A DNA stretch of 64,000 nt from a virus: positions 31,664 through 95,663 of the IMG/VR virus record IMGVR_UViG_3300028197_001738. The stretch is one strand, 5' to 3'. Positions 7,181 to 54,698 of this stretch are shown piece after piece. The position numbers were made by a program, and so were the translations under genes. Positions within the stretch are counted from its first letter, which is position 1, and each line of letters opens with the position of its first letter. Below the pieces are notes generated by a model that was given only the letters and a program-made list of their open reading frames with translations, did not search any database and was not told where the DNA came from.

Positions 7181-7181
7181 A

Positions 7182-7907: not shown

Positions 7908-7909
7908 AC

Positions 7910-8230: not shown

Positions 8231-8242
8231 CGTTACCATTTA
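8209..8242. terminator. Imperfect hairpin between converging genes, possible bidirectional terminator
   Basis: The arms taaatgg (8209-8215) plus taacgct (8218-8224) pair with agcgtta (8229-8235) plus ccattta (8236-8242), giving 14 base pairs with one 2-nt bulge and an AAGT loop. It spans the stop codons of both converging genes. No clean U-run follows on either strand, so it may stop transcription from both sides or simply protect mRNA 3' ends. Confidence 0.5.
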
Positions 8243-8604
8243 CCCTCTGGACATTTTTCAGATTCCCATGATAATTTGCTAATATATTTTCTGTGTTGAA
8301 AAACGGGACAACCGCATTTATCACAGCTGTAATTATTAAAAAATTCACAACTTTCACATATTGAATATCTTTTAGATATAGTTTCATCAGGTGCTAATTT
8401 CATACCTTGAGATATATGCTCTGAAGTAGCCTTAGCAAAATTTTTCACCTTATTAATAAAAGATGGCTTACTTTCATTGGGTCTTTTAAAAGTCGTATTA
8501 CGACAAGGAAAAACTGGAGGCTGTCCATCATTCGAGCGTAACTGGATATTGCAGTTACTACATCTGTACCATCCCTGTCCTTCTACAATAAAATCACAAA
8601 GCAT
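8233..8604 (-). CDS. Small double zinc-site protein
   Basis: The protein has 123 residues. Two metal sites are suggested: WYRCSNCNIQLRS with a later FPC near the N terminus, and a C-terminal module with ICESCEFF, CDKCGC and a final KCPEGKW. The C-terminal pattern resembles small phage Cys-rich proteins that end in 'KCPxGKW'. It is the last gene of the long minus-strand tail unit, 2 nt after the 2524-residue gene, yet nothing in it looks structural. It might act in host takeover or in assembly. Function is unknown. Confidence 0.65.
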   Translation of the reverse strand: MLCDFIVEGQGWYRCSNCNIQLRSNDGQPPVFPCRNTTFKRPNESKPSFINKVKNFAKATSEHISQGMKLAPDETISKRYSICESCEFFNNYSCDKCGCPVFQHRKYISKLSWESEKCPEGKW

Positions 8605-8606
8605 TA

Positions 8607-11600: not shown

Positions 11601-14600
11601 ACCATAATACCCACTATCTTTATTTATTGGTTGTGTTTGATAGTCTATGAATCCCAGGATATCACTACCACTTCCATAGTGTTCGCTATCATTACTTGTT
11701 GGAACTGGTTTGGTTTCGGAATCTACATGTAAAATAGTTTCCCATGTGCATAAAGTGCTGAATTTTTGTGTAGACGTAACTTTACTGCTGGGCTGTGTAA
11801 AATTATTGTATAAAACATTACTTTTAACATTATCGTAAGGTCCCATTAAGTCTGTTTCATTAACTACTGCTATTTTTAAACTAAATTTTGTTTGTGAATC
11901 AAAAGCATCTCCCTGCTGTTTAGGCATTTGGTCTTTACAGGGGCCAGTTTCAGGACCCGGATTGACAAAAAGAATCTTATTATGGAATTTACTGAATGTA
12001 TTGCATGGTATAGTTAGTCCATTGCGAGGTATTATTTTGTCCATGAGGTGATGATCTTCAGACGAAAATCCCATTGCTGCTGTTGTTGGTTTTAATGAGC
12101 TAAAATTATCAACAGCTGTATATCTGGTATCGAACCTACCATCAGCAGAATTATTAGTTTCAGCATTATCAGAAAATTTTAAAGATAAATTAAATTCGTT
12201 ATTTTTTACGTATTCCTGATTCAAAAGCATTAACTTAAAAGGTTTTTGAGGAGCAGTGGAATTTATAGTTGTTAGTTCAGTTAAATAACTTTTAAGTAAT
12301 TCTACATCTACATGTCCTTCAATAGTTTCTTTAATTCCTGTGTTTGAAAAATAGTCTTCTAATTGTTTTTTAATATTACTATCAGTATTAGACCATTTTA
12401 TATCCGTTGATTGATACTGAGTAGAGCTACTAAAAACCTGATCTAAAAATGGCTCGTCAACATTTATTAAGTCAGGATATTTAAGTTCTCTCTTACCCCG
12501 GCCCTTTTGAGCATCTATTTCTTTTTCTGACAATTCTGCTTCTAGCCATATTACTAAATCTTGAGTATTTACATAGTTAAAAAATCTTAAATTTACTTCT
12601 AAGTCTTTTATTTGGAAAGAATTAACTCTAGGGTCTCTTAATTCTAAATCAGAATCCATATCATCTTCGGGAAGTCCTCCCTTTCTTAGTAGTTCTTCCA
12701 ATTCTGGAGATAAATCTTTTAGATTGTTAGCTGGTCCAGTAACTCCAAATTCATATAATGTTTCATAATCGAGAGAACTATTTTCTTTTGTTGTTATAAA
12801 AAATTCATCATTCACATCATAATTTAGAGAAAGAGTTCTTTCCATTTGTTTAGGATAGCCACCAGCCAACATTCTATAACCATGAGTAGACTCATATTGA
12901 ATTTCAGATCCGCTTGTCATAACCTTTTTATTCGTATTATAGGCATCTGCATATTCTTTATGCAACTGATTGATAGTGTTTTGAAATCGCATTCTCTTAT
13001 TAAAACTGTTCCCTGCTGCCCCACCTCCTTGAGCAGGGGGACACTCGCACAGAGGATCCCACCGAACACCCTTAGCTATTCCTAAACTTACAGTACTAGT
13101 AAATATCTTAGGACTATTGTATGTGACGCCTCCTAAATTTATAATACTACTACTGTCAATATTTAATTTAGGTCCATTAAAAGTAAATGAATCTCTAGCT
13201 CCGGGGTTGAATTTTAAAACAGAAGATTTGTTGATATCTATTCCGTCAACCCATCCACTATTAGGAATAAACGAACCCTTTTTAAAATTTACGTAAAAAT
13301 CTCGACTGTCCACACTATCTATTATAGCATCGCTAGCTTTAGGATAACATAACTTATGCCTAGGAATATTTGCACTTTCTTCTTCATCTTCTTGAGCCTG
13401 AGGGCCAGATTGAGCATCTGCGATGTTATTATTTATTTCTTTGGATTTGGCTAGTTCACTAAGATCGTCCAAAGGATATCCAGTAATCGGAGGATATGTT
13501 ATATCGAGTCCTAAAGCAACATCAGGTAATTCTAATTCGTTGTGAAAATTTGTTTTTTGCTCACTATCTAGACTATTATAACCCCCATAAGATCTTAACG
13601 GGCTACCACGATCAGTAGAGAATGTAGTCAATCCAAAAGTTTTAGTTTGACGTTCGTCCGGCATTGCTGCTAAAGCAAAACCTAAATAATTATTGGTATA
13701 GCCAAGCGTATTTCCTGTAACACCTTGACCAGCAGCTCTTCTTTCATATGCAGATATTGTGTTTGAAAATAGAGATAAACAATCCGAACATTCTGTACTT
13801 CCATTCCTGACTTTTTCTACAATAATTCTATCTACATAGACTCTAATGTCGCTGTTGTTCATATTGTATTTAACATTATATAATGAACCGCTAGTTTCTC
13901 CTGTATTAATTAATACTTTACCACCATCTGTTTCGTCAATGGCATTAAATATAAATTTACTTCCTGATAATTGCATAACTGTAGATGAGAGAAAAGCACT
14001 TTCGACAACCTTAAAATTTGTAGAGACAGGCCAAACAGCACCTTCTGCTTTAAATGCTACCTTAGTCATTGATCCAGCTACAACTTTTATCCCCCTAGGA
14101 TTTAGAGCAATCGGATTTCTTTGAGCTCTAAAAAATTTATTATACTTATTGATGAGAACATTAGTATTAACTATTTCTCTTGTTCTATTCATATAGTTAT
14201 CATAGCTATAAGTGGCTGTCTCGTTTTTTTCTGTTTCTACGATAAAAGTTTTATATTTAACATGAACACCAAAAGGACCAGATATAGTACACTTAACCGT
14301 GATGGCCCCATAATCAGAAGGCAATATATCAACTATATCGGCTGTAGAAGTATTATATAAAGTTCTCTTTCCTGTTCCAGAAATATTTGTGTCTGTAAAT
14401 TTAATCTCTGGTCCACTAACATGCTCCCATAAAACACCAAAGTCACTTAGCGCTTCATTGCTAGCGAGGAAGAAGGTCCAATCTTCCCTCCCAACCATAA
14501 CTGCTTGAGAAAGAATAGGGAAAAATGCAGATAAGCTAATAATTGGTGCGTTAATTTCTTCAGCAGGTCTAGGATCATCCGATGACAAAACCTGAGGAAA

Positions 14601-16181
14601 TGCTGGATTATTATCAATAGACGATTCTCCTGGTAGTACTCGATCTGGGAATGAAGGATTCTGGGAAGCCGCAGGGAGAGGTATGAAAGTAAACACATTT
14701 GATAAAACCGACCAAGGAGCATCTCTTGGAATCCCGTCTGTAACTACTCCAGAGTCTGTCGTATTATCATAAGCCATAGCTATATTTATATTGAGTCGAG
14801 GTCCCCAATATGGCTCTATTCCATCATATAGAGGTATCCTGTTTTCTGCAATTTTGTCTCCTTTAACTTTTGATACAATATTCAGTTCGGCATAAGGATT
14901 GAATTCAGGGTTGTCGTTATTTATCTTGGATAATATTGTAATATTCTTGGTTTCAAATTGTTGAGTTGCTGTTACTGTTTGACCCAAAGAGCTAGCGTTA
15001 TTAGTAACAAGATCAGAAACTTGGGTAATGGCAATATTGTCTCCATTTTTTATATCAAAACTACCCAAGTTAACTGTACCTCCATCTCTTAACGCCAATT
15101 TTGCTCCATACTTATGAAATAATTTATTGAATACCTGATCTGGAGTTCTTAGTATACCTCTAGTAGGTAAAGGGTTTTCATTCTGTGTGCCTGTGTCTTG
15201 ATTTAAATTTAGGTCTGTATTTAAAGATGCTGAATTTAACTCAGCACTAATGTAAGATAACGCTGTCTTTAAATTCGTATCTCCGTTAAGAAAATTATTT
15301 TTGATATTTTTTATTGAATCTAGACGCAAAGCTTCGATATGAAAATTAGAAACTAAAGGACTACTAGCCAAATATTTTGATAAGTTTTTTAGTCTTCTAC
15401 GATATTGCGCGTCTCCAAGTACCAATTTCCGCAGATCATATGTTATAGCATTATATATAGCATTATAAGATTTATACAGTGCTGGTGATATAAAACTTTT
15501 GTCTGGCAGACCCACAGCCTGATTCTCTGTATAAGAAAAAACATCTCCATCAGGTATCCATAATTCTGTGGTTGTCTCATTTAAATAAAGCTTATAGCTT
15601 TCTTCATTATATTTAGGCCCCAGTATTTCTGAAGCCTCTTTTACAGCGGAATTTTCTATTATTGGAGTATCAGATGTTGATGATAAAACCCTATCTTCTG
15701 GAAGTTTTATAAAAGGACCATTTCCATCGCTTGTATAAAATGGAATATGGGTTGCTAAATTTTCCCAACTAAAAAATCTTTCTTCACTGTTATCAACTAA
15801 TTTTCTTGACCAATACATCAAGCCTTCTGTAACAGTAAATGGGAATTCATAACTATTTAGTCTCCAGCATATGGACATATAACCATCAGAATATCCAAAA
15901 TTACGAAAGTCTGGATTAAAAGTTACATAATCATTAATTCCTATAGAGTTTTTATTGTATACTCCTCTATTGCTTATTTTTTGAATATCACTATTAGCAG
16001 AAAGAAGTGTCGGAGTCCAATGTTCTTTTGGCTGCAAAGAAGGTAATAACGTGTTATCAATTGAGATATTAGAGACACTACCATCAAACCAATCCTCTAT
16101 GGTTTCTTTAGCACTGCTAACTTCCGGTTTAATTAAATCATCAGACAGATAACTGTCGACGATAGTACAATCTGCTACCAT
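8607..16181 (-). CDS. Giant virion protein, probable tail-tip/baseplate component
   Basis: The protein has 2524 residues and no recognised enzyme motif. It is rich in Asn, Ser, Asp and beta-type segments, as virion proteins are. Around residue 587 (WEHVSGPEIKF) a PKD/Ig-like domain is suggested. At about residues 1581-1613 there is an Ala/Gly-rich hydrophobic stretch (ILAAGAAGAGLGFAGAG and on) of a kind that could insert in a membrane; a lysine- and charge-rich section follows around 1900-2150. Cysteines are scattered, including CECPP near 1055. It is the last large gene after the hub-like protein, matching a distal tip position. Start at ATG 16181; the gene is 17 nt after its upstream neighbour. 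Role in host contact is inferred. Confidence 0.7.
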   Translation of the reverse strand: MVADCTIVDSYLSDDLIKPEVSSAKETIEDWFDGSVSNISIDNTLLPSLQPKEHWTPTLLSANSDIQKISNRGVYNKNSIGINDYVTFNPDFRNFGYSDGYMSICWRLNSYEFPFTVTEGLMYWSRKLVDNSEERFFSWENLATHIPFYTSDGNGPFIKLPEDRVLSSTSDTPIIENSAVKEASEILGPKYNEESYKLYLNETTTELWIPDGDVFSYTENQAVGLPDKSFISPALYKSYNAIYNAITYDLRKLVLGDAQYRRRLKNLSKYLASSPLVSNFHIEALRLDSIKNIKNNFLNGDTNLKTALSYISAELNSASLNTDLNLNQDTGTQNENPLPTRGILRTPDQVFNKLFHKYGAKLALRDGGTVNLGSFDIKNGDNIAITQVSDLVTNNASSLGQTVTATQQFETKNITILSKINNDNPEFNPYAELNIVSKVKGDKIAENRIPLYDGIEPYWGPRLNINIAMAYDNTTDSGVVTDGIPRDAPWSVLSNVFTFIPLPAASQNPSFPDRVLPGESSIDNNPAFPQVLSSDDPRPAEEINAPIISLSAFFPILSQAVMVGREDWTFFLASNEALSDFGVLWEHVSGPEIKFTDTNISGTGKRTLYNTSTADIVDILPSDYGAITVKCTISGPFGVHVKYKTFIVETEKNETATYSYDNYMNRTREIVNTNVLINKYNKFFRAQRNPIALNPRGIKVVAGSMTKVAFKAEGAVWPVSTNFKVVESAFLSSTVMQLSGSKFIFNAIDETDGGKVLINTGETSGSLYNVKYNMNNSDIRVYVDRIIVEKVRNGSTECSDCLSLFSNTISAYERRAAGQGVTGNTLGYTNNYLGFALAAMPDERQTKTFGLTTFSTDRGSPLRSYGGYNSLDSEQKTNFHNELELPDVALGLDITYPPITGYPLDDLSELAKSKEINNNIADAQSGPQAQEDEEESANIPRHKLCYPKASDAIIDSVDSRDFYVNFKKGSFIPNSGWVDGIDINKSSVLKFNPGARDSFTFNGPKLNIDSSSIINLGGVTYNSPKIFTSTVSLGIAKGVRWDPLCECPPAQGGGAAGNSFNKRMRFQNTINQLHKEYADAYNTNKKVMTSGSEIQYESTHGYRMLAGGYPKQMERTLSLNYDVNDEFFITTKENSSLDYETLYEFGVTGPANNLKDLSPELEELLRKGGLPEDDMDSDLELRDPRVNSFQIKDLEVNLRFFNYVNTQDLVIWLEAELSEKEIDAQKGRGKRELKYPDLINVDEPFLDQVFSSSTQYQSTDIKWSNTDSNIKKQLEDYFSNTGIKETIEGHVDVELLKSYLTELTTINSTAPQKPFKLMLLNQEYVKNNEFNLSLKFSDNAETNNSADGRFDTRYTAVDNFSSLKPTTAAMGFSSEDHHLMDKIIPRNGLTIPCNTFSKFHNKILFVNPGPETGPCKDQMPKQQGDAFDSQTKFSLKIAVVNETDLMGPYDNVKSNVLYNNFTQPSSKVTSTQKFSTLCTWETILHVDSETKPVPTSNDSEHYGSGSDILGFIDYQTQPINKDSGYYGNSFIADLTGMLELMPLANVNAPFQYIQDFTPCPNNTDNPFKTDIAIAGPPEFPSSATVSILAAGAAGAGLGFAGAGAAAAGASIAGSASNSAYGQIFDYFSQTRKWRGADRKQGEIYALNHDGYQFGSGDKILLNVSKDGAFWYNLEASIFRLSNTPRIKTMLRDITPISNGSTDLEILLSNFEYSIVSSKSELYEPGSETIDLLNSNIGSAYHIFDDDTYSAIGNRCNITVIKIENSIPYDLYDVDEDMNIIDSTGDFEETTATILGKAKIILDNKHVSIFALSDEKEGVFCPAQGDTLVGRNKVMSLDNSVIAIIDPVTSIADTLEDEENIGSDPTNQFKFDGEINDSSYDDQWTSAKHPIYPPKNNLFSRGSYGDISLLHNKFFVNEFDKVNKIKKLYEIYNNRDNNKFKYNKILLYDKNTSSFSDFIKSKTRGFSCSINELLNFQEVFDDREEEKKKRVIDSDIVTPDTLAEIKETFENKYKDYKYQNKKHEIIYIKNKDFNDIYEEDLWSDYQLMFQGDMTISNKVNLYGNTKSDINKRLETLDGEVTESIIPEKLSMEEIRKFFKLEPSISTALLYYDNSKDSDEVNALIKLSDNIEKLCAEGNSLKRLLLQIAEEDVTSHVVATLSVTDNNINTYDVDYSINNNLYWINIDPKQSCSIAEELRPKVLIKTVTSCAFLDPNLQGQEGQIDNNVCPQFAYGGGFSAGDEGVEQLEFGDNPIGSVDFRQTLSPTYTIPEETVQKQKEELEKKYPSIAGWATYDVFRTFYMPTTQDIGSNASQNYIVLVREYYEVALPASNILPPKKAIEEGLIGNDYSADVNSVLGIGDDPACTDGSPGGLGLLSALDPEDDGLRVGAPSRVTNIFNLDNTKDLRVKFRKIPRSLRGVDLLATLYRYGDVTEYRQDSRVAPLQPIQTTIAQGYLYNFPYMWQCYEFDEDSNLQKTSNTRLMQLLNELSYRAYMGSVDGAENREQGQIVSEFDAFMIPHEYTGD

Positions 16182-16198
16182 TTTTATTCTATCCTACT

Positions 16199-19100
16199 TT
16201 AATTCATAGATGTTAATGTCCATGATCCGTCTATAAAAGAAAAAACTCCAGGGGCTCCTGAATAAACTTTAAAATCTAATGGGTTATTAAAATTAACTAC
16301 CAAATCACTGCTTACTGCTCCTGTTTTAGATTTAGCATATGCTGTATCAATATTAGCCTCTCCATTATTTATAACTCCTAGGGCCACTATATTAGGCTTG
16401 CTAATAGGTTCATAATAACCAAGATCAGGATTATACCTACACAATAACCTAACACCAGCAGGAGCACTGTATCCTGCTCTATCTATAACATATACTAGTC
16501 TTCTAAACCCCTTAGGTAAAGGTTCAGTTATATATTCTAAATCATCAATATATCCCCTAACAACATTAGTATAGAAAAATATATCAGGATCTCTAATTAG
16601 ATCTTGTTCTAACGTAATATATACCATTTTATATGGGCATCCGCTATCAGTTTTTTCACTAATATAATCAGCTAATGTAGAGTTGTCAATTTTATTAGTA
16701 ACAATATATGGTGGCAATAATTCTTCTCCACAGCCACCATCTCCTCCAACCCAGACTCTGCGTTCATGATCCCATCGCAAGTCTACAGGACCAACAGGCC
16801 AAGTATCAGGTTTAGATGCCCAATTTTCACTAAAATACTTACTAGGTTTTTTACTCATAACCCATTGACTACCGTCCCATGAATATCTTTTTGTAATAAT
16901 ATCCCCTAAATGAAGCAAGAAAAAAGGATTATCTTTTGTTTTCCTTATTGGTTCAAATGCTCCTGGATGTGTCATATCATTGAATCCTTTTCCGTCCAAC
17001 TTAAATCTTTTCGGTCTTCCTTTTTCATCTATTTCTAGCGGCTCATCACTATAATTAGGTATGGGGTAACCATCTTTATCATACCCCCATCCGTGAACCA
17101 TTAAGGGACCTCTTAGCGAAAAGAATCTTTGATTATTTAAGAAAAGTGTTCCTTCTGCCTCTTTTGATTCAAAATCAAATTCTTCAAAAGCAGGAGGTAT
17201 CGTTGAACTCTGAGTGTTTCTGCCGTGGAAATTATCAAGATTTGCTTCTATACCAGGAAGTTGTTGACCTCTACCAACAACTCTAATACTATGTGTATCA
17301 GGAATATTCCCGGATGGATACGCATTAGGATTAGCAAATTCTCCACGAGGAACAACCACAGGATTTAAAGAATAAAAATTTATACCTATATCTTTAGATT
17401 TAGGATCAGAGTTTAATACTACACGAGGAGCCTTGTCTTTAGTTGGTTTCTCGTCTAAGAATTTATCATAAGACACTCTAGAAGCATTACAGTTTGGACA
17501 AGCATACTTAACAGTTTGTCTATCTTCGGAATTAGGATAATTCACAAACGTATCTTCAATATATCCGACATTTTTACATATGTGACAATAAGCTTTGGTT
17601 GCATAGCCGTCAAGTACTGCAGGTATGTTTCCACTTTCTAATGTAGCAAGCCTTGTTTGTGCTGTTGTGAAATTTGATAAATTGTGTGTAGAATGATAGG
17701 ATGTAGCATAAAAAGAAACAGGAGATAATAAACCGTCTAGGCTCATAGCAGATTTAACATTATAGCCTTGCAATAATTCTGGACCTACTTCTTCAGCCAT
17801 AAATAATCCAGCCCAAGATTCCATTTGTTTATTTTTAATCATTTTTTGAGCATCACTACCATTATTACTGGCCGCTATGAAATGCCTAGATGATCCTATC
17901 AATAACTCTCCTGGACTATTTCCAAACATACTATCTGAATATAAGTCAGCAGCCTCTTTTAAGACATCAGTAGTGTTTGTTTGGTTTTCTATAATAGATA
18001 AAACTTCTTCCGCTAATTGATTTGTGCTACTGTTTTGATTAGTTAGCACCTCATTACCCAGTTTCAGAAATCTTTGGTTTATTTTTTTCTGAGTATCAGA
18101 CAGTTCTTTGTTATAACTACCCATTTTTGGATTGTAGGAGCCAATATTATATGAGGTAGTCACTCCTTCTGTAGCGACCGAAATATTAATACCTTGAACA
18201 AAAGGATATCCTTGATTATATGTAGAGCTTTGATCTAAAAATGTACATTTAAAATCCTGACTTACAAAACCTCCTTGCGTATTATAATCTTGCATTTTTA
18301 TGGATTCAGTATCAACAGAATAAGGAGATACCAAAGTATTAGCGCTAGTAGAAAATTGAGACCCTATAGTAAAAATAGGAGGTCCTAAAATTTTAACAGA
18401 ACCATTTTCTTCTGTAGTCAAATAATTTTCTTTGGCATTTATATCCCAAATAACGGCTTTGTCAAGTAAAGAGGTTCCTCCATAATTCCAAGGAACGTAG
18501 TCACTGTTGCTCTCTACAGTAATATTGTCTACTAAGTTTTCTACGATAGTGTCAGGATTGTTTACATAGCTCCATATATTGTTTTTATTTAAATCTGGAT
18601 AGTTTGCCCACGGACCATAAACATATCTATTGCTTTCTACTGGAATAGCAGCAAAAAACGGCTGTGCTGCTTTTGCTCCCATTTTCCTGTGATTGGCTGA
18701 TACGTTAGTTTTGGAACCTTTTTCTAGTAAATTACCTTCTTTGATTACCGGTGTAAGAAAATTACTTTCTAGATATTCCATATGATCATATTCGTCTTGT
18801 GTTAAGTCAAAACCGGTCCCAACTAATTCAGGTTCTCCATTCTCATCTATTCTATATTTTCTTGCTGCTCCTGTTGCGTATCTATAAAAAGATATATCTT
18901 CACTGGCAACATTAGGCATCACGTAACCGTTTGGATCATGCTCATAGGCATAAGTAGTTGTGTTTAATTCAATTCTATTACCAATAGAAATAATAGCTCT
19001 AGGATCACTCAAAAACTCTGGTCTGCCATATGCTATTTTAGCATTGTTGTCTATAGAAGCTTTTTTATAAAGTTTTTTGCCTCCTGCACAAGGATCTGCG

Positions 19101-22100
19101 TCTGCGCCATAAGCAGAAACAAAACCTACATTATAAGGAACAACAACATGCTCTTTGCTATCTCCAGCTGTTGACCATTTAATAGAAGGAATTAAGAAAC
19201 TGTCTTCATTAACAAATACTTTAGCTGTCGCATTTAAATTACCGTTGTTTTGCTCTAATGCTTCTTCGGCTGTGCATTCTATGGCAGCAGGCATATCTGC
19301 TGTTACTGCCGCTGCCTGTCTTTTTAAAGCTTGAAATTTTTTAAAACCTTTGAATGTCTCCTCGTCCATCCCTACGAAACTCTGCTTTAAGTACTCATCA
19401 GTTTCACTACCTGTTAATTCTAGGTATCCATCAAGTGCGCAAGTCAGAACGATATTGGGTGCTCCATTATCCATCGTTTGAGGACAAACTATTCTAAATG
19501 TCCAATTGCTTAAAGGTCCAACAAAAGGTTGTCTTATAAATTGAACTTGTTCAAGCACGACCAACTCTACAAATAATTCATTAATTGCTTGGGCTCTTAT
19601 CCCTGATAGTTTTTTAGCTTTTTCTAAAGCACTAAGAGCACACCATGCTTTTTTAGTATAATCAACTTTATCGCTAACATTAAATCCTAACAGAGGAGGT
19701 ATCATACCCTGTTCATCTGTTAGAGCTGACCAGTAAGCTCCTCCTACCATAACTCCATCATCAATGAAATTACCTGGCTCTTCCCATGCTGATCTAGCTA
19801 AAGAATATTCACTAAATGTTTTGGCGCTACCTGAATAAACAAAAAGATCTCCTCCTCTAAAACCAGGTATATTAAAATTAGAGTACGCCTGATCTCTATA
19901 GCTTTGCATATATGGAATTTTAACCATATATTTTTTACCATAATACTTACTAGCCAAAGTAGAAAGAAAATTAGTTAATATTTTAAGGTCATTAATAAAA
20001 CCAGGATGCATAAGCATAGAAAAATTAATATCTGATATTTTGCTTTTTTGAGCACCTTTTCTTTTACCTGGTCCTCCACCAGCATTTGCAACATTATTAT
20101 CATTACCATGAGCTGCTAATTCTGAGGGAGATCTTGTCAGACCTTTCTTATTAGACACAACACCACTTGATATTTGAACACCTTTATCTTGCCAGCATTC
20201 TAATAACATTAAAAATAAATCTGGTTTTGTGCTTGGCATTTTAGCCAAACAATATTTTAAATAACTTTCCCAACCAGACATAGCAGCTCGAAGCTCTGAT
20301 TCTGTTACCAAAAATCCAGTACCTTTAAAATTTATTTCTCTTTTTAATTCAGGAGTTATATTTGGTTGAGTAGGGGGTACTCCTGTAGGAGGTATAGTTT
20401 CAGGATTTCCAGGACTATCACCACCAGATGCTAAGTCATCAGGGTCTTGATCAAGCCCTTTGTCGGTTCCAGGTAAAGCTCCACTATCTTTACCGAAAAA
20501 AGCTTTGTCATAAACAGAAACTAAAGGACCACAACTAACCGGAGGCAATTCATTTATATCAAAAGCTACACATAATTGACCTGTCCAACTATCTAGCCAA
20601 ACAGGTCTAATATAATTATGCATGTTCGAGTCTTGCGAGACCGGGAAAGTTCTATCATATTTAAAACCGAAAAAAGGACAAATAGAGTCTTTAAATATAG
20701 GTATATATCTATTAGATTGGTCGATATTTGTTATAGTTGTCTCTGAACCTGAACTACCAAGGGTTCCTAGACTTCCAAAGAGAGCGGTTCCAAGAAGACC
20801 GCCACTAAAAAGACTACCTATAGACGGTGTTGTTTGTGTATCGGCTTGCTTAAATACTCCCAATAAAGTTAATGGACTCCCAACTGCTGTAAAACCAACA
20901 ACATTGTTGCCTATGTTGCCAGCTAAACCAATTCCAGGAAGTTTAGCGGCATCAGTAATATTATCTATAATAGGTAGCCCGGTGTTTTCATCTATAGCAA
21001 AGTCTTTATTACTATAAACATCTAAACAACTTGCGTCTCTAGAAAATACGGTGTCGTCCACCCAAAGATTGTTTGGATCAGTAAACGAATTTCCAGTAAT
21101 AAACTTTCTTACTTTTTCGTCGGTATCTATAATAGCATTATAATTACCGTGAATTTGATCTCCTAATTGTGGATTTCTGGTCGATGTCGCCATAGGAACT
21201 TTGTATTTGTCCGTAACAATATCGTCGAATCTTCTAAAATTAATAAACTCTGCAGTAACTGGATTCCATATATAATTATCTTGATTGAAAGCTAATCTAT
21301 AATTTTTAACTTGATATATTCTTTTTTGCTTACCTCCTATCATTACTGATCTAACATTAGCTTCTTTATTTTTTCTTTGACCAGAAGAACTAGATGTAGC
21401 AGCATACCCACTATTTACTAATTCGTTAACAACATAATTGATTGTATATGGCTTTATATAATTTTCTTTAGGTACAGCTTTTACTTTTAATATATTATAA
21501 GGATTACTCTGTTGCACTAAAGATTCAGCAAAGACCCAATAATTTTGTTGACCATTCAGTTCTAGCATTTGGTTTAAAAAATCACTAATTCTTAAAATCC
21601 CACCCTTAGCCTCTACTCTAAAATCATCAGGAGGTATTTCTATTTCAGATAGATCTAAAGCAAATTCTGTTCTAGGGATACCATTATGATCGAGTGTTGG
21701 AGGTATAACCCCAAAAGCATTATTTCGAAAAGAAGTTTGAATATTTAGATATCCCGTACTTTCAACTTTCTGCATCACTTTTGATAGTATTCTGCCAAAA
21801 GGAGAAAACATATTTTTAGATTGCCATTTTAATTGACTCTTATCTGTAGAAGAAGTCAAAACCTTTAAAGCCTGCAATGCTAATCTGTAGGATATTCCTT
21901 TTTCATTCTTATTTGCTCCTCCAAAACCAGCAGGACCTAACGAATCAAGGAAACCATAGGCATTAAAAGTGTTATGTAAATTTCCAGATTTTATATTCGC
22001 CGTAGCGTCCAATGAACCTGCATAATTTCTTGGTGCTCCATAAATATCGCCAGGAGCCATAGAGAATACTGTTCCTGCGTATTGATCTAAAATAATATGA

Positions 22101-22708
22101 GAATTTTCTAATAGAGAACCAGCTGATTCTATTTCTACTTTGAAAAAATTTCTTCCATTTCTAAAATTTCGTTCCCATCCTTTGACAATTCCAGTAAAAG
22201 TCATATTATCAAATTTAAAAAATACCGCAACTCCTATTATATCATAAACATTAGTGTTTGTATTATCTATACTTCCATTCTCATTAATTTTAGTTCCTGT
22301 CGCAAAAAACCCAGGATCTTCAGCTAACCAGTATTTTGAAACAACGCCGCTGTCTGTCCACGTATAATATATTTTACCAGGAACATTTTTTTCTTTAGGA
22401 GGATTAGGATCTCCATCCTTATCCACTCTTGCAGGATCGTAGGGTTTTCCTAATTCATCGATATAGCAATCCTCATCTGTACTGCAAGTATGGTAATGGT
22501 CATCTCCATAAGACGGAACATCATTAAATGGGTTTATCGGATTTGTTCCGTTATAACAAGTTAACGGTTGAAAATCTTCTACTAATTCTACTGTGCATGT
22601 AGAACTTGTTCCTCCCCAACCAAGATTCATGTTGACAGACACAACGCTTGCGCCTAAAAATAAAGTTTGTCCTATAACTTTGGTGCCGTCACATTTAGTA
22701 GTAGCCAT
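16199..22708 (-). CDS. Giant tail hub-like structural protein
   Basis: The protein has 2169 residues. Near residues 157-200 the pattern FFKFDNMTFTGIVKGWERNF, then KVEIESAGSLLENS, resembles the N-terminal domain of phage baseplate hub or tail-associated proteins (gp27/late-control type), which form the ring below the tube. A zinc ribbon is seen at C1708/C1711 (CHIC) and C1737/C1740 (CPNC). Proline-rich linker sequence (about 760-800, PTGVPPTQPNITPE) separates domains. No lysozyme or other wall-degrading motif was recognised. It begins 2 nt after the 648-residue gene and precedes the 2524-residue gene, forming a contiguous tip module. The hub call is by pattern and position and should be treated as probable. 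Confidence 0.6.
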   Translation of the reverse strand: MATTKCDGTKVIGQTLFLGASVVSVNMNLGWGGTSSTCTVELVEDFQPLTCYNGTNPINPFNDVPSYGDDHYHTCSTDEDCYIDELGKPYDPARVDKDGDPNPPKEKNVPGKIYYTWTDSGVVSKYWLAEDPGFFATGTKINENGSIDNTNTNVYDIIGVAVFFKFDNMTFTGIVKGWERNFRNGRNFFKVEIESAGSLLENSHIILDQYAGTVFSMAPGDIYGAPRNYAGSLDATANIKSGNLHNTFNAYGFLDSLGPAGFGGANKNEKGISYRLALQALKVLTSSTDKSQLKWQSKNMFSPFGRILSKVMQKVESTGYLNIQTSFRNNAFGVIPPTLDHNGIPRTEFALDLSEIEIPPDDFRVEAKGGILRISDFLNQMLELNGQQNYWVFAESLVQQSNPYNILKVKAVPKENYIKPYTINYVVNELVNSGYAATSSSSGQRKNKEANVRSVMIGGKQKRIYQVKNYRLAFNQDNYIWNPVTAEFINFRRFDDIVTDKYKVPMATSTRNPQLGDQIHGNYNAIIDTDEKVRKFITGNSFTDPNNLWVDDTVFSRDASCLDVYSNKDFAIDENTGLPIIDNITDAAKLPGIGLAGNIGNNVVGFTAVGSPLTLLGVFKQADTQTTPSIGSLFSGGLLGTALFGSLGTLGSSGSETTITNIDQSNRYIPIFKDSICPFFGFKYDRTFPVSQDSNMHNYIRPVWLDSWTGQLCVAFDINELPPVSCGPLVSVYDKAFFGKDSGALPGTDKGLDQDPDDLASGGDSPGNPETIPPTGVPPTQPNITPELKREINFKGTGFLVTESELRAAMSGWESYLKYCLAKMPSTKPDLFLMLLECWQDKGVQISSGVVSNKKGLTRSPSELAAHGNDNNVANAGGGPGKRKGAQKSKISDINFSMLMHPGFINDLKILTNFLSTLASKYYGKKYMVKIPYMQSYRDQAYSNFNIPGFRGGDLFVYSGSAKTFSEYSLARSAWEEPGNFIDDGVMVGGAYWSALTDEQGMIPPLLGFNVSDKVDYTKKAWCALSALEKAKKLSGIRAQAINELFVELVVLEQVQFIRQPFVGPLSNWTFRIVCPQTMDNGAPNIVLTCALDGYLELTGSETDEYLKQSFVGMDEETFKGFKKFQALKRQAAAVTADMPAAIECTAEEALEQNNGNLNATAKVFVNEDSFLIPSIKWSTAGDSKEHVVVPYNVGFVSAYGADADPCAGGKKLYKKASIDNNAKIAYGRPEFLSDPRAIISIGNRIELNTTTYAYEHDPNGYVMPNVASEDISFYRYATGAARKYRIDENGEPELVGTGFDLTQDEYDHMEYLESNFLTPVIKEGNLLEKGSKTNVSANHRKMGAKAAQPFFAAIPVESNRYVYGPWANYPDLNKNNIWSYVNNPDTIVENLVDNITVESNSDYVPWNYGGTSLLDKAVIWDINAKENYLTTEENGSVKILGPPIFTIGSQFSTSANTLVSPYSVDTESIKMQDYNTQGGFVSQDFKCTFLDQSSTYNQGYPFVQGINISVATEGVTTSYNIGSYNPKMGSYNKELSDTQKKINQRFLKLGNEVLTNQNSSTNQLAEEVLSIIENQTNTTDVLKEAADLYSDSMFGNSPGELLIGSSRHFIAASNNGSDAQKMIKNKQMESWAGLFMAEEVGPELLQGYNVKSAMSLDGLLSPVSFYATSYHSTHNLSNFTTAQTRLATLESGNIPAVLDGYATKAYCHICKNVGYIEDTFVNYPNSEDRQTVKYACPNCNASRVSYDKFLDEKPTKDKAPRVVLNSDPKSKDIGINFYSLNPVVVPRGEFANPNAYPSGNIPDTHSIRVVGRGQQLPGIEANLDNFHGRNTQSSTIPPAFEEFDFESKEAEGTLFLNNQRFFSLRGPLMVHGWGYDKDGYPIPNYSDEPLEIDEKGRPKRFKLDGKGFNDMTHPGAFEPIRKTKDNPFFLLHLGDIITKRYSWDGSQWVMSKKPSKYFSENWASKPDTWPVGPVDLRWDHERRVWVGGDGGCGEELLPPYIVTNKIDNSTLADYISEKTDSGCPYKMVYITLEQDLIRDPDIFFYTNVVRGYIDDLEYITEPLPKGFRRLVYVIDRAGYSAPAGVRLLCRYNPDLGYYEPISKPNIVALGVINNGEANIDTAYAKSKTGAVSSDLVVNFNNPLDFKVYSGAPGVFSFIDGSWTLTSMN

Positions 22709-49400: not shown

Positions 49401-52400
49401 AACTTCTCCTGCTGCAAACTCTGTCTGCTTTAAGAATAACGCAGAAGCTTTTCGTAAGTCGTCTGGCATCTCAAACAGAGCTTTAAGCATAGCATTGGTT
49501 ATTTGTTGAATTTGCTCGGCGGTTACTTCTCCACCAACCTCAAACTTTGCTACGCCTCCTACCATTCCTCCCTTATTGTATCCTTGAATTTTATCAGCTT
49601 TATTTAATTTGTTTAATTTTGCTGCTCCTAGTTTTGAAGCAGCTTTTTTATTTATAACGAACTCACCAGGAGTTAACAGTGCTGGTACTGTGTCTTCGAC
49701 TGACCCACCATTAGCAAACTGCGACATATATTGTGTGGTAGGAGCTTTTGTATATGCATACTGTAATGGTAAAGCTGCTCCTGTCCACGTAGAAGGATCT
49801 TCACTAGGATAGTCTTGTTCTTTAAAATAAGAACCAGTATACATATTCTCTGAAGGCACCAAGGACTTACCAACAGAAGCGCCATCTTGACCTGCTCCTT
49901 TATTAAAATAGTTAGTCCAAATTCTAGTTAAAGAGGCACTACTAACTCTACTTCTGTCAGAAGTTAAACTGCCTCCATTAGCTGTTGCCGTTTCCATAAC
50001 AGCATCATATAAAGATCTCCCTCCTCCACCAGAAACTTGTGCTGATGTGGCTGCATATAATCCATTTCCAATATTATTTGCAACTACATCGCCTGTGCTT
50101 TTTCCTTGAGTGAAATATGCACTAATAGCAGATCCCGCATCTGTAACCCCAATATCTTTTCTAATAGCACTTTCTGCTATAGCAGCTTCACCACCGTCTT
50201 TAAATTTTGTAAAAAAGTCAGATTGTAAACCAGACTCAGCAAAAATCTCCTTTAGTAAAGCTTCAGCTTGTTTGTTCTTACTGCTCTTATAACTTTGAAG
50301 CATCATAGGAACAGCTTCTCCTCTCATTTGAGAAGATAATAATTGTTTTTTGTTTTTGTCATCTTCAAGTGGGTACTCGGACGCAAAAACATCTTCAGCG
50401 GAATAGCCGAGATCTTTGGTATTGTTGATAAAGTCAGAAATTTCAGCTTCTCTATTTATTACAGCGCTATCTAGTTTAGAACTAATATCTGGATAGTTTT
50501 GTAATAAATAAGATTGAACATCATGAAAACCTTCATGAGCAATAATATCGTCTCGATGTTTATCAAAAACCGCCAACCATCTTTTCTGATTAGAACCCGC
50601 ATCGCCAAGAGAGCTTGAAGCTTTTTGTTCTGTGTCTGGATTTAAACCCTGTTGACTTATAAATGCATCTAAATCTTTTGTAAAATCTGGAAAATAAGCA
50701 CCACGACTACCTCCCAGTAGTCTATAAAGTATTCCTCTCCAATTAAAATTAGCATTTTTAGGAGCTTCCCATTCTTGACCATCTTTGGTCATTAGCTTGT
50801 CACCCTGAAACATTTCTGAAGGCAGAACAGCTTTTAATAAGTCATTATAAACTTTGCCTGTATTACCAGAAATGGCTCCTCCAAAAAATTTCTTTTGAGC
50901 TTTCTCTTCAAAATATCTAGTAAACTCACCTCTTGCTCTTTTTAAAGAATCTTTATTAATAATCCTTTTAACTTCTGTTGGCATTCCACTATCAATTCCT
51001 GGAAAATATTGTGAAGCAGCACCTAGTCCATTAGGATAATCTATGGCTCTGTTCTGCTCTGCTCCAGGAGGTAAAGGAGCTCCTAAAAGAGCCATGGTTC
51101 TTTCTATTATGGCTCCTTCTATATTTCCTTGACCTGTTAGCTCTTCTAGCTTTGTGGTGGGTGTTGAGGGCTCTTGATATCTATAAGCAGCTTTTCCAGA
51201 ACCTAAAACAGCTGTAACATTTGACAAGCTGTCATCAATCAGTTTTTCTGCCGCTGACATATTTTGAGCTTTAAGCTCAGGAACATTTGTTGTATTAGGA
51301 GTTTGGGAAACACCTGTTACAGAAGATGTCTCGTAAGGCAGACCGAATCTTTGAAGTGTATCTGCTACTAAATCTGCAGTTAATTGAGGACGAGCAGTTA
51401 AAACCCTTGTATTATTACGAATATAACCAGGAGATTGTTTTTCAAGCTCTAAAAGCTTACTAACTATAGGAGTTGGTCTAGCTCCACGAAGAGCTTCTGC
51501 AACGCGATCTCTATTATAGTATTGAGGAATATCTTCTTTACCTTCAGAATCTAGAATAGCTGTGTTAGAAGCTAAAGTTTCATCAAAATCAAAAGCTATA
51601 GGTCTTACTGGTCCTATTTGATTAGGATCTGAACCCTGAAAAATATTTGCATTCTCTAAATCATTAGCAAAACTAACAGCAGAATCTTTTGTTGCTGCCT
51701 GCATTTTATTAACTGATTCTTTATATCTTTCTCCCAATCCACGAGATTTAATATTTACTTTAGTATTAGCTAAATCATAAACTTTATCTTTATTATATCC
51801 GATAGGTAGTAAGCCAACAATACCAACCTGCTCTTCAAAATCTGTTGCTTGTGATCTCAAAACATTGTCAAGAGTAGTAGTTCTTGCTTGTAAAGCTTGA
51901 TTCATAATCTCTGTAGCTTGATCTAGATTAGAACCAATATTATTAGATCTCAGAACGCTATCTAATGTTCTATCTCCCTTTGATAATCCTAAAATTTGTT
52001 TAACTGACTGTATACCTCCCAAAGAACCTATTTGGTCCTTGATAACATCTTCAACGGACATAGATTTTTGATCAGCTATATCTTGAACCATACCGCCTTC
52101 TAAGAATTTTTGAACCATTCCTCCAGAGTTATAATAACAATCAGCTTTAGGTCTACCTCTTCTTTCAAAAGGTATATCACTAGGAGAAAAATTGCCCCTG
52201 TCTACTGCAACAGCTTTTTCGATGATGCTTCTGCGATTAGGATAAGTATCACTAAGTTTAACATCAGTTAAATCACTAATAGGCTGGTCTGTTAAACCTT
52301 TAATCGTCTGGTTGGCAACAGGTATATCAAATCTGTCTGTTCCAGGATCTTGTAAATCAGCAGCGGCGAAAACGAAACCTTCAAAAAGTTTTCCTGCAGC

Positions 52401-54698
52401 AGTAGCGGTTAAAGCTTTAGCTGTATTAATTGAAGATTCTTGTATTTCTACTCCTCCGATACTATCAGATAAACTAGTAGCCATCTTGTCTATTAATTTT
52501 GGTAATTTCTTTTTTTCTTTATCAAAAGCTTTAGTTTCACTAAAACCAGAAACTTCTATTGGTGCGACATACTGATCACAACCTATCGTTGTTCTAACCA
52601 TGTCGTAATCTGGAGGATTGCCCATGGAAGGTATAAGCATACCATAGGATCTTGAGCTTTCATAAACATCTCCACCATCAGCAAATTTTTGAACAGTTCC
52701 TATTCTAGCAGACTTTCTCGCTCTTCCTCCGCTACCATATTTATTCATATTCTGCAGCTGTTCTGTTCCTATAGTATCAACAGCTTTCTTTCTTATTACG
52801 AACTCGCCAGGCTGCAACATCGCGGGAACCGTATCTCTATTACCTGTTCCTGGTACAGAGCCACCTCTTGCGAATTGTAGTGGTTTTCCATCAGGGCCTA
52901 ATGATCCTGTTGATCCACCAGACCTACCTGTACTAGAAGATCTAACAATATTAGCTAGGGCATCTACAGAAGATGTTAATTTTGTTAAAGCAGAAGTGTT
53001 CGTGGATAAAGCAGATATGTTTTTAATAAGCTCGCTTGAAATATTTTTATTATTGTCTTTTTGACTAGTAGCAGTTGCTAGCTTGGTTGCTGCTTCAGCA
53101 ATTACTTTAGCTGCGGTATTCGTCTGTTGTTCTGGAGTACCAGCACCTCCTTGAACTTTCTTTAAACCTCCGACAAAACCTGTTCCGAATTGTTTGAGTG
53201 CAGACGCCCCTTTTTCTAAACCTATCAAAGCTAATACAGGCAAAGCTCCCTTGACAGCACCAGCTAAACTTAAAATGGTTTTTGTAACACCAAGAGCACC
53301 TTTCGCCAGAGTTTGAAAAGTATCGCTACCAACTATATCACGAGTAAGAGTGGTAAATTGTTCTCTTACTTTAGCAATCTGATTGGCTAATGACTGCTGA
53401 GCTTTTACAGCATCAGTAGCAAGAGATCCCTGACCAGTTTGAGCAACCTTCAATGCTTCTTGAGCTGTGCTAAATCTTTGGATTAAAGGAATAACCTTAC
53501 CAATCTGTCTAAATCCACCGAGCTGCTCTACAATACCTCCGAATTCTATAGACCTAGGATCTAAACCAGACAAACCGCGAGACAAAGCTTCTACTGCATT
53601 AAAAGCACCAACAAATTTGCCTTCAACATCAGTTAATTGAACACCAAAGGCTTCCAAAGCTTCTATGGTGTCTCCTCTTTGTATTCTAGTAAAGATGGTT
53701 CTTAAGCCCGTTGCAATAGTTTCTGCACTTTCACGAGTTGTAGACCTAACACTTGTAAACACAGCTAAGAATTCATTTAATGCGTCTGTACCGGAGCTTA
53801 CGCCTGAACTAGCTGTAGCGAACACACCACCAGCACGTTGTATTGCGGTAATTAAGTCTGTTGATTCAACAGCAAAACTAGCAGCTACAGAATTTATAGA
53901 AGACAGGGCTTTTTCTAAATCTTGCGTACCTATACTAAACTGTCTCATTAAAGCAACACTACCCTCAACGGTCTGATTAAGATTGGTAAACGAAGGCGCT
54001 AGTTCTGTTAATGCCAATGCCTTTAAAGCTGTTTGGGTCTCTTGTGCAGATAACCCAGCCTGAGCTAACGTGTCAGATATGCCAATTAAGCTTGCGGATG
54101 AAACACCTAGACCAGTAGATAGATTGGCTATAGTACCAGATAAAGACTGTAAGCTTTGTTGAGACTTACCAGTAATTTGTTCTATTCTTACCATCTGACG
54201 TTCGAAATCAATAGCAGCACTTACGCCTTGATTAATGGCTCCACTCAATTTAAATATAATACCTGAAACAACACTAAAAGCAGCAAATCTACGAATAGCT
54301 AATGCTCCTTGTCTACCAAACTCTTCCATCTCTGTTTTTGCTTCAGACAAAGCTCCGGAAGAGTCGGAAGCAGATTCAGACACTTGTTGAATTGATGCCG
54401 CTGCTTTTTTAGTATCAGAAGCCAATTTATTGGCTTTGATAGAAGCAACAGAAGATTTTAAGTTAGATAAAGCTTTAGCTGCTGAATTAGCGCTGGTCGT
54501 TGTTTGACTAAGAGTAGTATTAAAAGTTTTTAAAGAAGCGTTCAAAGATGCTACATTTTTTGCTGACCCAGGATCTAGTTTGAATTTTAGATCGCCCGTA
54601 ATGGTTCCTACTTGCTTCTTAATATCAGATACTATAGATCCTATATTTTTAGGACCTCTTAGATTTAATTGTGCTGTTAAATTAAAAGCTTGTGCCAT
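40437..54698 (-). CDS. Giant multidomain tape measure protein
   Basis: The protein has 4753 residues. Residues about 150-470 match the phage minor tail/tape measure domain (helix-rich: TGLGVSSASLIGISDTLAQAG, FATASSGV), preceded by a long coiled-coil-like region rich in Ala, Ser, Lys and Thr. Long helical stretches fill about 1700-2900. It contains five copies of the motif GG...DTVPAMLTPGEFV (near residues 627, 1674, 2919, 3980, 4561), which mark tape measure domains in many phages. Three further domains are embedded: a possible PD-(D/E)XK-like fold (773-814), a HAD-like fold (1037-1156) and a zincin motif (1388-1461). It follows an intrinsic terminator. If fully helical it would span up to about 710 nm. 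Start supported by AAGG upstream of ATG 54698. Confidence 0.9.
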   Translation of the reverse strand: MAQAFNLTAQLNLRGPKNIGSIVSDIKKQVGTITGDLKFKLDPGSAKNVASLNASLKTFNTTLSQTTTSANSAAKALSNLKSSVASIKANKLASDTKKAAASIQQVSESASDSSGALSEAKTEMEEFGRQGALAIRRFAAFSVVSGIIFKLSGAINQGVSAAIDFERQMVRIEQITGKSQQSLQSLSGTIANLSTGLGVSSASLIGISDTLAQAGLSAQETQTALKALALTELAPSFTNLNQTVEGSVALMRQFSIGTQDLEKALSSINSVAASFAVESTDLITAIQRAGGVFATASSGVSSGTDALNEFLAVFTSVRSTTRESAETIATGLRTIFTRIQRGDTIEALEAFGVQLTDVEGKFVGAFNAVEALSRGLSGLDPRSIEFGGIVEQLGGFRQIGKVIPLIQRFSTAQEALKVAQTGQGSLATDAVKAQQSLANQIAKVREQFTTLTRDIVGSDTFQTLAKGALGVTKTILSLAGAVKGALPVLALIGLEKGASALKQFGTGFVGGLKKVQGGAGTPEQQTNTAAKVIAEAATKLATATSQKDNNKNISSELIKNISALSTNTSALTKLTSSVDALANIVRSSSTGRSGGSTGSLGPDGKPLQFARGGSVPGTGNRDTVPAMLQPGEFVIRKKAVDTIGTEQLQNMNKYGSGGRARKSARIGTVQKFADGGDVYESSRSYGMLIPSMGNPPDYDMVRTTIGCDQYVAPIEVSGFSETKAFDKEKKKLPKLIDKMATSLSDSIGGVEIQESSINTAKALTATAAGKLFEGFVFAAADLQDPGTDRFDIPVANQTIKGLTDQPISDLTDVKLSDTYPNRRSIIEKAVAVDRGNFSPSDIPFERRGRPKADCYYNSGGMVQKFLEGGMVQDIADQKSMSVEDVIKDQIGSLGGIQSVKQILGLSKGDRTLDSVLRSNNIGSNLDQATEIMNQALQARTTTLDNVLRSQATDFEEQVGIVGLLPIGYNKDKVYDLANTKVNIKSRGLGERYKESVNKMQAATKDSAVSFANDLENANIFQGSDPNQIGPVRPIAFDFDETLASNTAILDSEGKEDIPQYYNRDRVAEALRGARPTPIVSKLLELEKQSPGYIRNNTRVLTARPQLTADLVADTLQRFGLPYETSSVTGVSQTPNTTNVPELKAQNMSAAEKLIDDSLSNVTAVLGSGKAAYRYQEPSTPTTKLEELTGQGNIEGAIIERTMALLGAPLPPGAEQNRAIDYPNGLGAASQYFPGIDSGMPTEVKRIINKDSLKRARGEFTRYFEEKAQKKFFGGAISGNTGKVYNDLLKAVLPSEMFQGDKLMTKDGQEWEAPKNANFNWRGILYRLLGGSRGAYFPDFTKDLDAFISQQGLNPDTEQKASSSLGDAGSNQKRWLAVFDKHRDDIIAHEGFHDVQSYLLQNYPDISSKLDSAVINREAEISDFINNTKDLGYSAEDVFASEYPLEDDKNKKQLLSSQMRGEAVPMMLQSYKSSKNKQAEALLKEIFAESGLQSDFFTKFKDGGEAAIAESAIRKDIGVTDAGSAISAYFTQGKSTGDVVANNIGNGLYAATSAQVSGGGGRSLYDAVMETATANGGSLTSDRSRVSSASLTRIWTNYFNKGAGQDGASVGKSLVPSENMYTGSYFKEQDYPSEDPSTWTGAALPLQYAYTKAPTTQYMSQFANGGSVEDTVPALLTPGEFVINKKAASKLGAAKLNKLNKADKIQGYNKGGMVGGVAKFEVGGEVTAEQIQQITNAMLKALFEMPDDLRKASALFLKQTEFAAGEVSGSVQNIMGTLNKTMTQTISGAPELVDTIRNMLNAGKRVAEDIERSQIKSDPGFNAAELAANPAVTESRSRRLSGDMSDFVNMDSIQQSSPVAPAPSSVEDITEATRKSAGDLAAAIEFVKAEMLEAAKSTKSEAFEGLRQSGKSPSESLAVARNLATQSGIAKGGSLIQETGAGSVRGRFDADIKDVIQGIKQAITRSDLASVDITQGRPQATPNVLFQANPGQKIKEKADKDSAIATQKKTKADAESQRQANRFALSIGIAGGVVSQLLGDIGGASKVVGAFVRSLSTSVAIISKTTDQYTRTARPQLESLLPKIADKFKLPEGFTKGVLKATDALFGYGKFLVAGVQVLKATSNAYYEWIKTLNNRRLTTALDSLSNRLSQLEKNLKNINNSEAFVREVQEASELSNRQVSLDRQSPEGFLNVGNRFVNQAFGADRRGEELNLIKNRLGELAFAQSANAVLFRGASDENRQEFMFNDIIPQIAIETSNAASKVINPLLQSLPSLIKSGEFESADDFQALLGTSDAASSLATSLAATDVAVQREIEQIKSNIDLTDDEKNARVNNLQFITASTIAQREFNVAMRQIEFDRLNKQVNQMVSSLSRLNTSLNQIVSRFDFASKLSATNLDLTTAALSGQAKLGNINLESIDTLRNPRAYSDDQVRGARDMASSSFGLDQQAIRPLLDLITNLEDSMNQAINSAISENPGASDKALTAAIEKAAIQSIRDLELPQNVEELTLKQVRSQIQQISTRGDGRITAQELIEALPSLSKQVDAARAAQESAVKSLEAWQNTVNSYTESMNRQIQLQVEYTQLISKAANIQNKGIISLSEAFKNEGILRSKINAFTQTITDLTSVGGGAGSTAPANIGQNILNLEKRRKAEEDFARSLAENGATSSEALREVREAAAETAIQLRQNYAALQELASNSEVASSALSRINEIQGRISAGTSFLEKLSTSSAGDINKTFRRLGELSENLAGNTVGRSNAQSRSERLQLFNSIAPLLGTGRTQNEFRANVLGSMLKEANVPLDSNLQNILDALRDPESDSEMAETISIYKEAVQKQADANVILAGIKQELSASEQKGTTDLLNGFQNIVENYITKQLTEISAGIRDLPGALDIRIQGKSDGGIIYAAGGSQIFKPKGTDTVPAMLTPGEFVVNRQATSKNLGMLKSINDGNTSYYESGGFVGSGFYANDPPVADLRERSLGVRKSIDENKGMSDNQYPYKQLPGGSVNDSDLLPDFNEKQLYTARVNRVFYGPAKELSVGVKGIFKQMKNAMGDENNDEPMSSQISGDFANVRMPNLDGDLSNYNFSPGKGFENLKIVINRSGGIRTGRAKNTQPTNITEGIEAKEFAKSYYLSDATTNKIIESSDYINKEDKDHAQQVLGDNVERLSNLKASITEGIISSSEDFKQNAQKSFGSSFDYSISAPKTGSSNLSLSIGGLGQSLDGGPQNLGLFDKQGAIKTLGASDGGLGIGKNAENPQLLGNAAKVAYKDQSLIGSYSGRIESPTDLIIKYIENTEDQLSRYSTDLSNDNFLGLTEKGKQLTLIQQKIKGLYEGTRNYATISSEDFKNLQFAPFGVDDLNDTFFPISLYAEGSSPRQKAAPEVKNIFDTYYKDIAKPYERYSDWSKQGFGSSLDFYKATNSEEDIDLELPFFFKHFGPEASSLPPPSESAIKVKTKTLGDSADATTVPIKYNEVSGKYYDRRESDFIEDISDKMYTVDPYKQPPLGPFYNKSPVYANTHLAEFSNLDDLKAYRSVMSMGFGAFKNSGDPDTWSDTDIAFDDAGYINKADPSSLSQLGLNEKAKNFAYIKDSLTSGAYEPSTDYVKAVQKYLKDKTGSTGGSALGVAEDLDSDLTDALRVTMARFIEKQDQTTGIMPESLSDINSMRSKLNSEIGAIDDPKNNKGIELEALRRLYTTVGGVRGVSTTQTLGLLPGDMKKATDLSSAVKVADPNLRGREKTLYYDKLTAEGEQGFNNFIDSALSKEVNIIRAKRLGGSADLSDDLTKEVTNDFKGGRYYEIGADGSRTEITPDKSAPNDYQTLFKRVLTPTNIFPGPSTRSKYLDELSYFFENRINNGQQVYTPDFIASTKEALVGNPNSIQKYFENFDKLINSSLSSDDILDNSNSPEEIAKTTNIASEFAAGAHRKLTAGRYGSLYTSSNDKSLEKFLKDEAENPVNKATGGMIYANEGRLINFQPRGTDTVPAMLTPGEFVVNRQATQNNLPLLKQINSGGSKGYQDGGVVYLAGGDMVTPFTKGATGIVKAIEAFSEGDVEKGLGYSGKATGDFASLIPSSFYESGTRSALDFVQLRGAEKIAQSVGERSGNIPYPIKGAGNALVFFGNIFAMVDKLQHGIDEFANSSSSSEGLYNSSDYFGKSAAYGVSSLKEIAGLFYSLKSMQGLGDSATQFKAYEKYLARGRLLIDGALAAKKVAEGKVSGGDFLEQALLGNAEASGLRGNEVFDSSILGAMAGDLGEMANTTYNLTSAGVPGPISALIASSLVLKRNTQALYAQSNALQNEMAEVQQGNVSLRSFDIKRLSESGSSVPMNTPLNEIGTIKAEASGGGLSQWLANNLFLSDTLKDKTLRQIMDSYGGAIVDSSMTSIPKTQEDKNGLLKSLFDRDDAYSDLFKNLAGDTYLGASSNLGKRTKGFKSDIDLNRVQKIQRDALVTANNDYNSIKGIEYNNFNKSSLGQTVLKNLQSQQRSPNIVAESNRAEGLHASAQLAKSLVELTRASAEAITAGAQADLSEILANSNQSQYRRSGGPIYASSGSHINFQPKGTDTVPAMLTPGEFVVNRESTQKHLGVLRAINSGEYSVGGIASYLQGGGLALPNYYRNGAQVGPSNSQPTFDASRFINNVIGRFTSKITSAIESALNGLDRQTGDAGGVSSSIESAVSSIDQFVSRLDRIASTLSSLDIPQEIKITGKHEVNVIINGDAALNSLKPDLATLVTDGIKGAFNTFRDNNPSLQDTMNFDVNP
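50316..50537 (-). other. Zincin-like metallopeptidase motif inside the tape measure
   Basis: HEGFH (residues 1388-1392) fits HExxH, and a glutamate at 1461 in RGEAVPMM could be the third zinc ligand 68 residues later, as in gluzincins. It lies in a globular-looking segment between two tape measure motifs. Peptidase activity is inferred. Confidence 0.55.
51231..51590 (-). other. HAD-like phosphatase domain inside the tape measure
   Basis: All four HAD motifs are visible in order: DFDET with D1037, D1039 and T1041; T1101 in VLTARP; K1152 and DD at 1155-1156 (KLIDD). Spacing fits the superfamily. The catalytic nucleophile D1037 and acid D1039 are present, so activity is plausible, though the target is unknown. 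Confidence 0.7.
52257..52382 (-). other. Possible PD-(D/E)XK-like fold inside the tape measure
   Basis: Residues E773 (LFEGF), D791 (DRFDIP) and D812-V-K814 form E-x17-D-x20-DxK, the spacing expected of a minimal PD-(D/E)XK core. No sequence family was recognised. The conserved proline is not at the usual place, so this is tentative. Confidence 0.35.

Follow-up and report, generated by a model that had tools for sequence, protein, structure and literature searches.

Tape measure proteins (TMPs) are usually read as rulers that carry an occasional wall-degrading patch, and the TMP encoded in the 64,000-nucleotide stretch of viral DNA analysed here (the window, part of a 95.7-kb virus record) raises the question whether such a ruler can also house a phosphatase, and what the enzyme would do there. 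A first-pass annotation had proposed a HAD-like phosphatase domain within this protein, at residues 1037-1156. The TMP frame of 4753 aa is uninterrupted in the ORF list, and the TMP N-terminal domain (Pfam, PHROGs) and the HAD share this one frame (Table 1). The domain had been placed correctly, codon 1037 of the ORF lying at 51588-51590 and D1156 ending at 51231. Two other very long proteins of the window, at 8607-16181 (2524 aa) and 16199-22708 (2169 aa), have no PHROG match.

Table 1. Features of the tape measure protein and its cargo zone (window positions; residues are those of the TMP).
Feature	Position	Strand	Evidence
Tape measure protein ORF, 4753 aa	40437..54698	-	Pfam PhageMin_Tail (5.1e-20) and PHROG tape measure families
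PhageMin_Tail domain, residues 190-381	53556..54131	-	Pfam
Linker motif 1, DTVPAMLQPGEFV, at the upstream edge of the proposed cargo zone	52779..52841	-	
Upstream segment (residues 690-855) whose E..D..DxK pattern resembles that of the host module	52134..52631	-	Motif level only
Host module, N-terminal half (three strands and long helix), residues 955-1030	51609..51836	-	Alignment, model
HAD phosphatase domain (predicted), residues 1031-1178	51165..51608	-	AlphaFold, Foldseek, hhalign to PNKP, family profile
HAD motif I, D1037-x-D1039-x-T1041 (predicted nucleophile, general acid/base)	51576..51590	-	Invariant in 49/49
HAD motif II, T1101 (T or S), then invariant A-R	51390..51398	-	49 copies
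HAD motif III lysine, K1143	51270..51272	-	K in 48/49; in helix before strand S4
HAD motif IV, D1155-D1156 (predicted metal ligands)	51231..51236	-	Invariant in 49/49
Host module, C-terminal half (G1195, E1199, D1220, E1242-x-K1244), residues 1185-1272	50883..51146	-	
HEGFH (1388-1392), zincin-like metallopeptidase signature, after the host module	50523..50537	-	Motif level
Conserved GxGPxLYD...LTSDR...W.YYF segment, residues 1500-1662	49713..50201	-	12 relatives
Linker motif 2, DTVPALLTPGEFV, at the downstream edge of the proposed cargo zone	49638..49700	-	

A family-based AlphaFold model of residues 955-1290 (mean pLDDT 90) has the alpha/beta fold of HAD enzymes and is not a coiled coil. In the numbering of the model, D1037 lies at the end of strand 80-83, the T/S of motif II at that of strand 143-147, K1143 within helix 185-191 before S4, and D1155-D1156 at the end of strand 198-201 (S4). 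D1037 and D1155/D1156 are thereby located at the strand ends expected for motifs I and IV, and these strand positions suggest that the residues cluster as had been proposed. Foldseek matched the model to solved HAD phosphatases of the PDB, namely AphA, phosphoserine phosphatase (PSP), HisB-N and the T4 Pnkp phosphatase, the latter (5uj0) with the best TM-score among the PDB matches listed (TMt 0.63, rmsd 4.4). Drimenol synthase and soluble epoxide hydrolase, multidomain enzymes which we take to carry HAD domains, were also matched. In a comparison with the viral models of BFVD many phage PNKP phosphatases were found. The two best viral fold matches (A0A218MMX7 and A0A218ML07) and the sixth (A0A6J5MBE6) are uncultured-virus proteins of 915 to 1475 aa, a length which hints that further giant proteins of phages may contain HAD domains.

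The fold assignment is joined by a profile-profile match to PNKP phosphatases: hhalign aligned the HAD profile to one built from 15 PNKP phosphatase domains of phages with a probability of 79.7% and a score of 37.4, against at most 0.9% and 16.7 in 30 column shuffles. PNKP stands among the best fold matches beside AphA, PSP and HisB, and the profile comparison covered PNKP alone. Between motifs I and II there is space for a small cap only. Small caps in the HAD superfamily point to large substrates, and by analogy the substrate here may be large. Single-sequence searches of Pfam, PHROGs and PDB did not recognise the HAD, and no relative was found by tblastn with three HAD copies among cultured phages or by a profile search of PDB sequences with a 30-member alignment, while a Pfam scan of the family members returned a single weak HAD match (E 0.057). 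No relative turned up in a scan of bacterial and archaeal genomes, and so no host was identified. On the model and the profile match together, we conclude that residues 1031-1178 form a real HAD phosphatase domain within the TMP, as the first-pass annotation had held.

The motif strings of the window follow the order expected for HAD enzymes, with DFDET (1037-1041), LTAR (T1101) and IDD (1155-1156). Three of the four motifs originally assigned (D1037-x-D1039-x-T, T1101 and DD1155-1156) are conserved, whereas the lysine had been sought at K1152, where K is present in 22 of 49 distinct copies as compared to 48 of 49 for K1143. Similarly, the core at 1037-1156 had been recognised correctly, but the domain is larger and extends over about 1031-1178 (51165-51608). 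Position 1101 is T or S in all 49 copies, whose mean pairwise identity is 41%. Fifteen of 154 columns are conserved to at least 97%, and six of the seven predicted catalytic positions fall there (hypergeometric p = 2e-6), the seventh being T1101 with its T/S alternation. Since part of the 49-copy set was gathered with patterns containing DFDxTL and TARP, that is, selected by its own motifs, the conservation count leans on 30 independent copies (window included), all obtained with the TMP N-terminus as bait. These show the same catalytic invariance (D1037, D1039, T1041, K1143, D1155 and D1156 without exception), and the other copies in this alignment are 22-51% identical to that of the window. 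Within three groups of relatives dN/dS of this domain type (HAD-A) is about 0.05-0.18, and HAD-A is under purifying selection. We count these dN/dS values and the retention of the D, D, T, T/S, K, DD set at 41% mean identity in favour of catalysis, and the domain is very probably enzymatically active.

How widely the arrangement occurs was assessed with two baits, and all relatives recovered are metagenomic sequences. The N-terminal 433 residues of the TMP retrieved 80 loci from IMG/VR, with 62 distinct TMPs besides that of the window; a profile search located the HAD in 30 of these, in 22 the surrounding module is present but lacks the HAD, and ten, most of them short or truncated, showed neither. 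The 30-copy HAD alignment yielded 58 loci from the viral collection, a set chosen by patterns containing the HAD motifs themselves, and at 57 of them the HAD is in frame with the TMP N-terminal domain. The exception (L139, ORF 3560-12616 of another virus contig) has the HAD in a 3019-aa protein with no detectable TMP domain. In nearly all carriers the HAD is placed in one loop of a conserved TMP module (the host module), between its long helix and the next helix, and the same module is uninterrupted in HAD-less relatives, where its N-terminal half also occurs; in one relative (L027) the HAD is located after the module. The linker DTVPA(M/L)L(T/Q)PGEFV is found five times in the TMP of the window (residues 630, 1677, 2922, 3983 and 4564), and its copies 1 and 2 border the segment with the HAD module.

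Seven TMPs, none of them with HAD-A in that scan, carry a second type of the domain (HAD-B), which keeps DxDxT and SIISKS motifs, has no recognisable motif IV, and matches the HAD-A profile with 91% probability over its first part. Its positions in the TMP are 887 (L058), 841 (L004), 1140 (L015), 628 (L036), 824 (L022) and 621 (L025 and L026). Mapped as a label on the tree of the N-terminal domain, presence of the HAD needs 14 changes, and the branches with good support alone call for nine or more gains or losses. One pair of relatives illustrates such an exchange: L058 and L060 are 95% identical over TMP residues 1-643, have no detectable similarity over the next 540 residues (up to about 1181/1186), and are similar again, at 66%, beyond that point; in the divergent stretch L058 has HAD-B and L060 has HAD-A. 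Judged by these sequence comparisons, close relatives gain, lose and swap the segment with the enzyme, which we read as a zone of exchangeable cargo resembling that of polyvalent proteins.

Other segments of the TMPs resemble enzymes to varying degrees. Beside the HAD, the window TMP has the HEGFH signature, a segment that gave no match to the Pfam library; akin HExFH segments are present in three other TMPs (L009, L027 and L079), and a separate HE(L/M)TH family in others. The GxGPxLYD/LTSDR segment recurs in 12 other TMPs, its position varying among them; by eye it is possibly acetyltransferase-like, a reading that found no match in Pfam or PDB. Both segments stand at motif level. An ADP-ribosyltransferase exoenzyme match (Pfam, best 6.6e-10) lies within the TMP of two relatives, and a cytidyltransferase-associated match (Pfam, best 6.5e-4) occurs in five. 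The segment at residues 690-855 was aligned at 14% identity to the first row, a weak kinship with the host module.

On balance, and whatever its substrate, we favour the explanation that the HAD is an active phosphatase delivered as cargo of the TMP. A HAD phosphatase with little or no cap, structurally near the 3'-phosphatase half of phage polynucleotide kinases, would be synthesised within the TMP and stored with it in the tail, would exit the tail upon ejection of the TMP at infection, and would then dephosphorylate targets in the envelope or the cytoplasm of the host. That the domain is ejected into the cell seems probable. Its most likely targets would be nucleic acid ends, so that it could serve in the repair of ends broken by host defence, while a phosphoprotein or a small signalling molecule is a less likely target; phage HAD phosphatases in RNA repair have been discussed for jumbo phages (PMC7824862). 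The assignment to nucleic acid ends is tentative, since PNKP is one of several HAD families matched. For the role as cargo we count the presence of the HAD in 30 of 62 relatives against a HAD-less module in 22, its location in the TMP at 57 of 58 loci, the minimum of nine forced changes and the L058/L060 pair. Against it counts that several copies of a folded domain of this size (about 150 residues) may be too big for the tail lumen. In mycobacteriophage TM4, deleting a 114-aa TMP motif is reported to have shortened the tail by about 20 nm (PMC1796659), which by analogy suggests that such inserts can be stretched out in the tail; the cargo may therefore lie stretched and refold later, and refolding after ejection would be required. 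More broadly, the TMPs of this uncultured phage group could be polymorphic carriers, with an exchangeable zone of enzymes (HAD phosphatase, metallopeptidase-like and others) that follows the conserved N-terminal domain, precedes the remainder of the ruler and is delivered into the host at DNA entry, a generalisation to which we give slightly less than even chances.

Alternatively, the HAD could act during assembly, dephosphorylating a phage or host factor or the TMP in cis, and be inert in the virion. Its nearly constant union in one polypeptide with the TMP N-terminal domain fits such a role, since many copies would then be present in the producing cell; but a function in assembly would be expected in all members, yet 22 relatives have the module without HAD-A and close relatives differ, so that we consider this unlikely. 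It is also rather improbable that the HAD partners the host module as a PD-(D/E)XK nuclease, the nuclease cutting and the HAD cleaning the ends. The module shows an E..D..(E/D)xK pattern, its conserved G1195, E1199, D1220 and (E/D)-x-K1244 follow the PD-(D/E)XK order, and D1220 and K1244 are invariant among HAD-bearing copies; however, several HAD-less relatives have threonine in place of the lysine, and structure lends the nuclease no support. A model of the HAD-less module of a relative (L011, pLDDT 86.5) matched nothing in the PDB significantly (best E 0.37), and its strand order is unlike the classical nuclease core, an alpha-beta-beta-beta-alpha-beta arrangement whose strands 2 and 3 carry the motif.

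The fold might, on the other hand, be kept for structure or spacing, for instance by adding to the length or stiffness of the tail, with its catalysis vestigial. HAD-B, which keeps DxDxT and has no recognisable motif IV in its seven carriers, would suit a spacer because some copies therefore look inactive, and the length of a tail is known to follow from that of its TMP (PMC1796659). HAD-A, however, keeps every catalytic position at its mean identity of 41%, which a spacer would not need, and we regard this reading as improbable. An assembly chimera or a chance resemblance, which the lack of a match in single-sequence searches might suggest, has a negligible probability: the 4753-aa frame is unbroken, dozens of independent contigs have the same arrangement, the structure and profile matches concur, and the relatives refute it. 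The delivery of an active phosphatase with the TMP is the reading that we favour. A conserved phosphatase repeatedly gained, lost and swapped suggests that the ruler may also deliver phosphate-acting enzymes at the first instant of infection, and sister TMPs whose main difference lies in the cargo zone offer a clean test case.

We found no published case of a HAD or PNKP domain in a tape measure in the open-licence literature, and the domain can be compared to several known systems. The PNKP-type HAD 3'-phosphatase (C-terminal domain of T4 PseT) has the same HAD core and motif order, but its identity to the TMP HAD is about 15%, and the TMP HAD is part of a tape measure, lacks the glycine of DxDGT (E, K, R or D is found there) and has no adjoining kinase domain, as no kinase family matched the TMP in Pfam or PHROGs and the HAD is flanked by the host module. 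Enzymes in tape measures or in proteins related to them have been described before (PMC1796659, PMC11126660). Motif 3 of TM4 (PMC1796659) is likewise an enzyme domain embedded in a TMP with a patchy distribution among relatives; TM4-type motifs act on peptidoglycan, whereas the HAD would act on phosphate esters. Tme (PMC11126660) and Sle1 (PMC13277306) are TMP-related carriers of variable functional domains including an endonuclease, but they are effectors of bacterial contractile injection systems with the functional domain at the C-terminus, whereas the TMP of the window is the tail ruler of a phage and would carry its cargo, a predicted phosphatase, internally. The nearest concept, by analogy, is that of the polyvalent proteins which Iyer et al. 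(2017, PMC5512222) described from phages and conjugative elements, in a paper whose main text contains none of the words phosphatase, haloacid and tape measure. The TMPs may resemble them in uniting many enzyme-like domains within a single long protein of the virion, with domain exchange and a metallopeptidase signature in the chain. The difference is that the carrier here is the tape measure, and TMPs acting as polymorphic carriers would be the tail-borne counterpart of polyvalent proteins.
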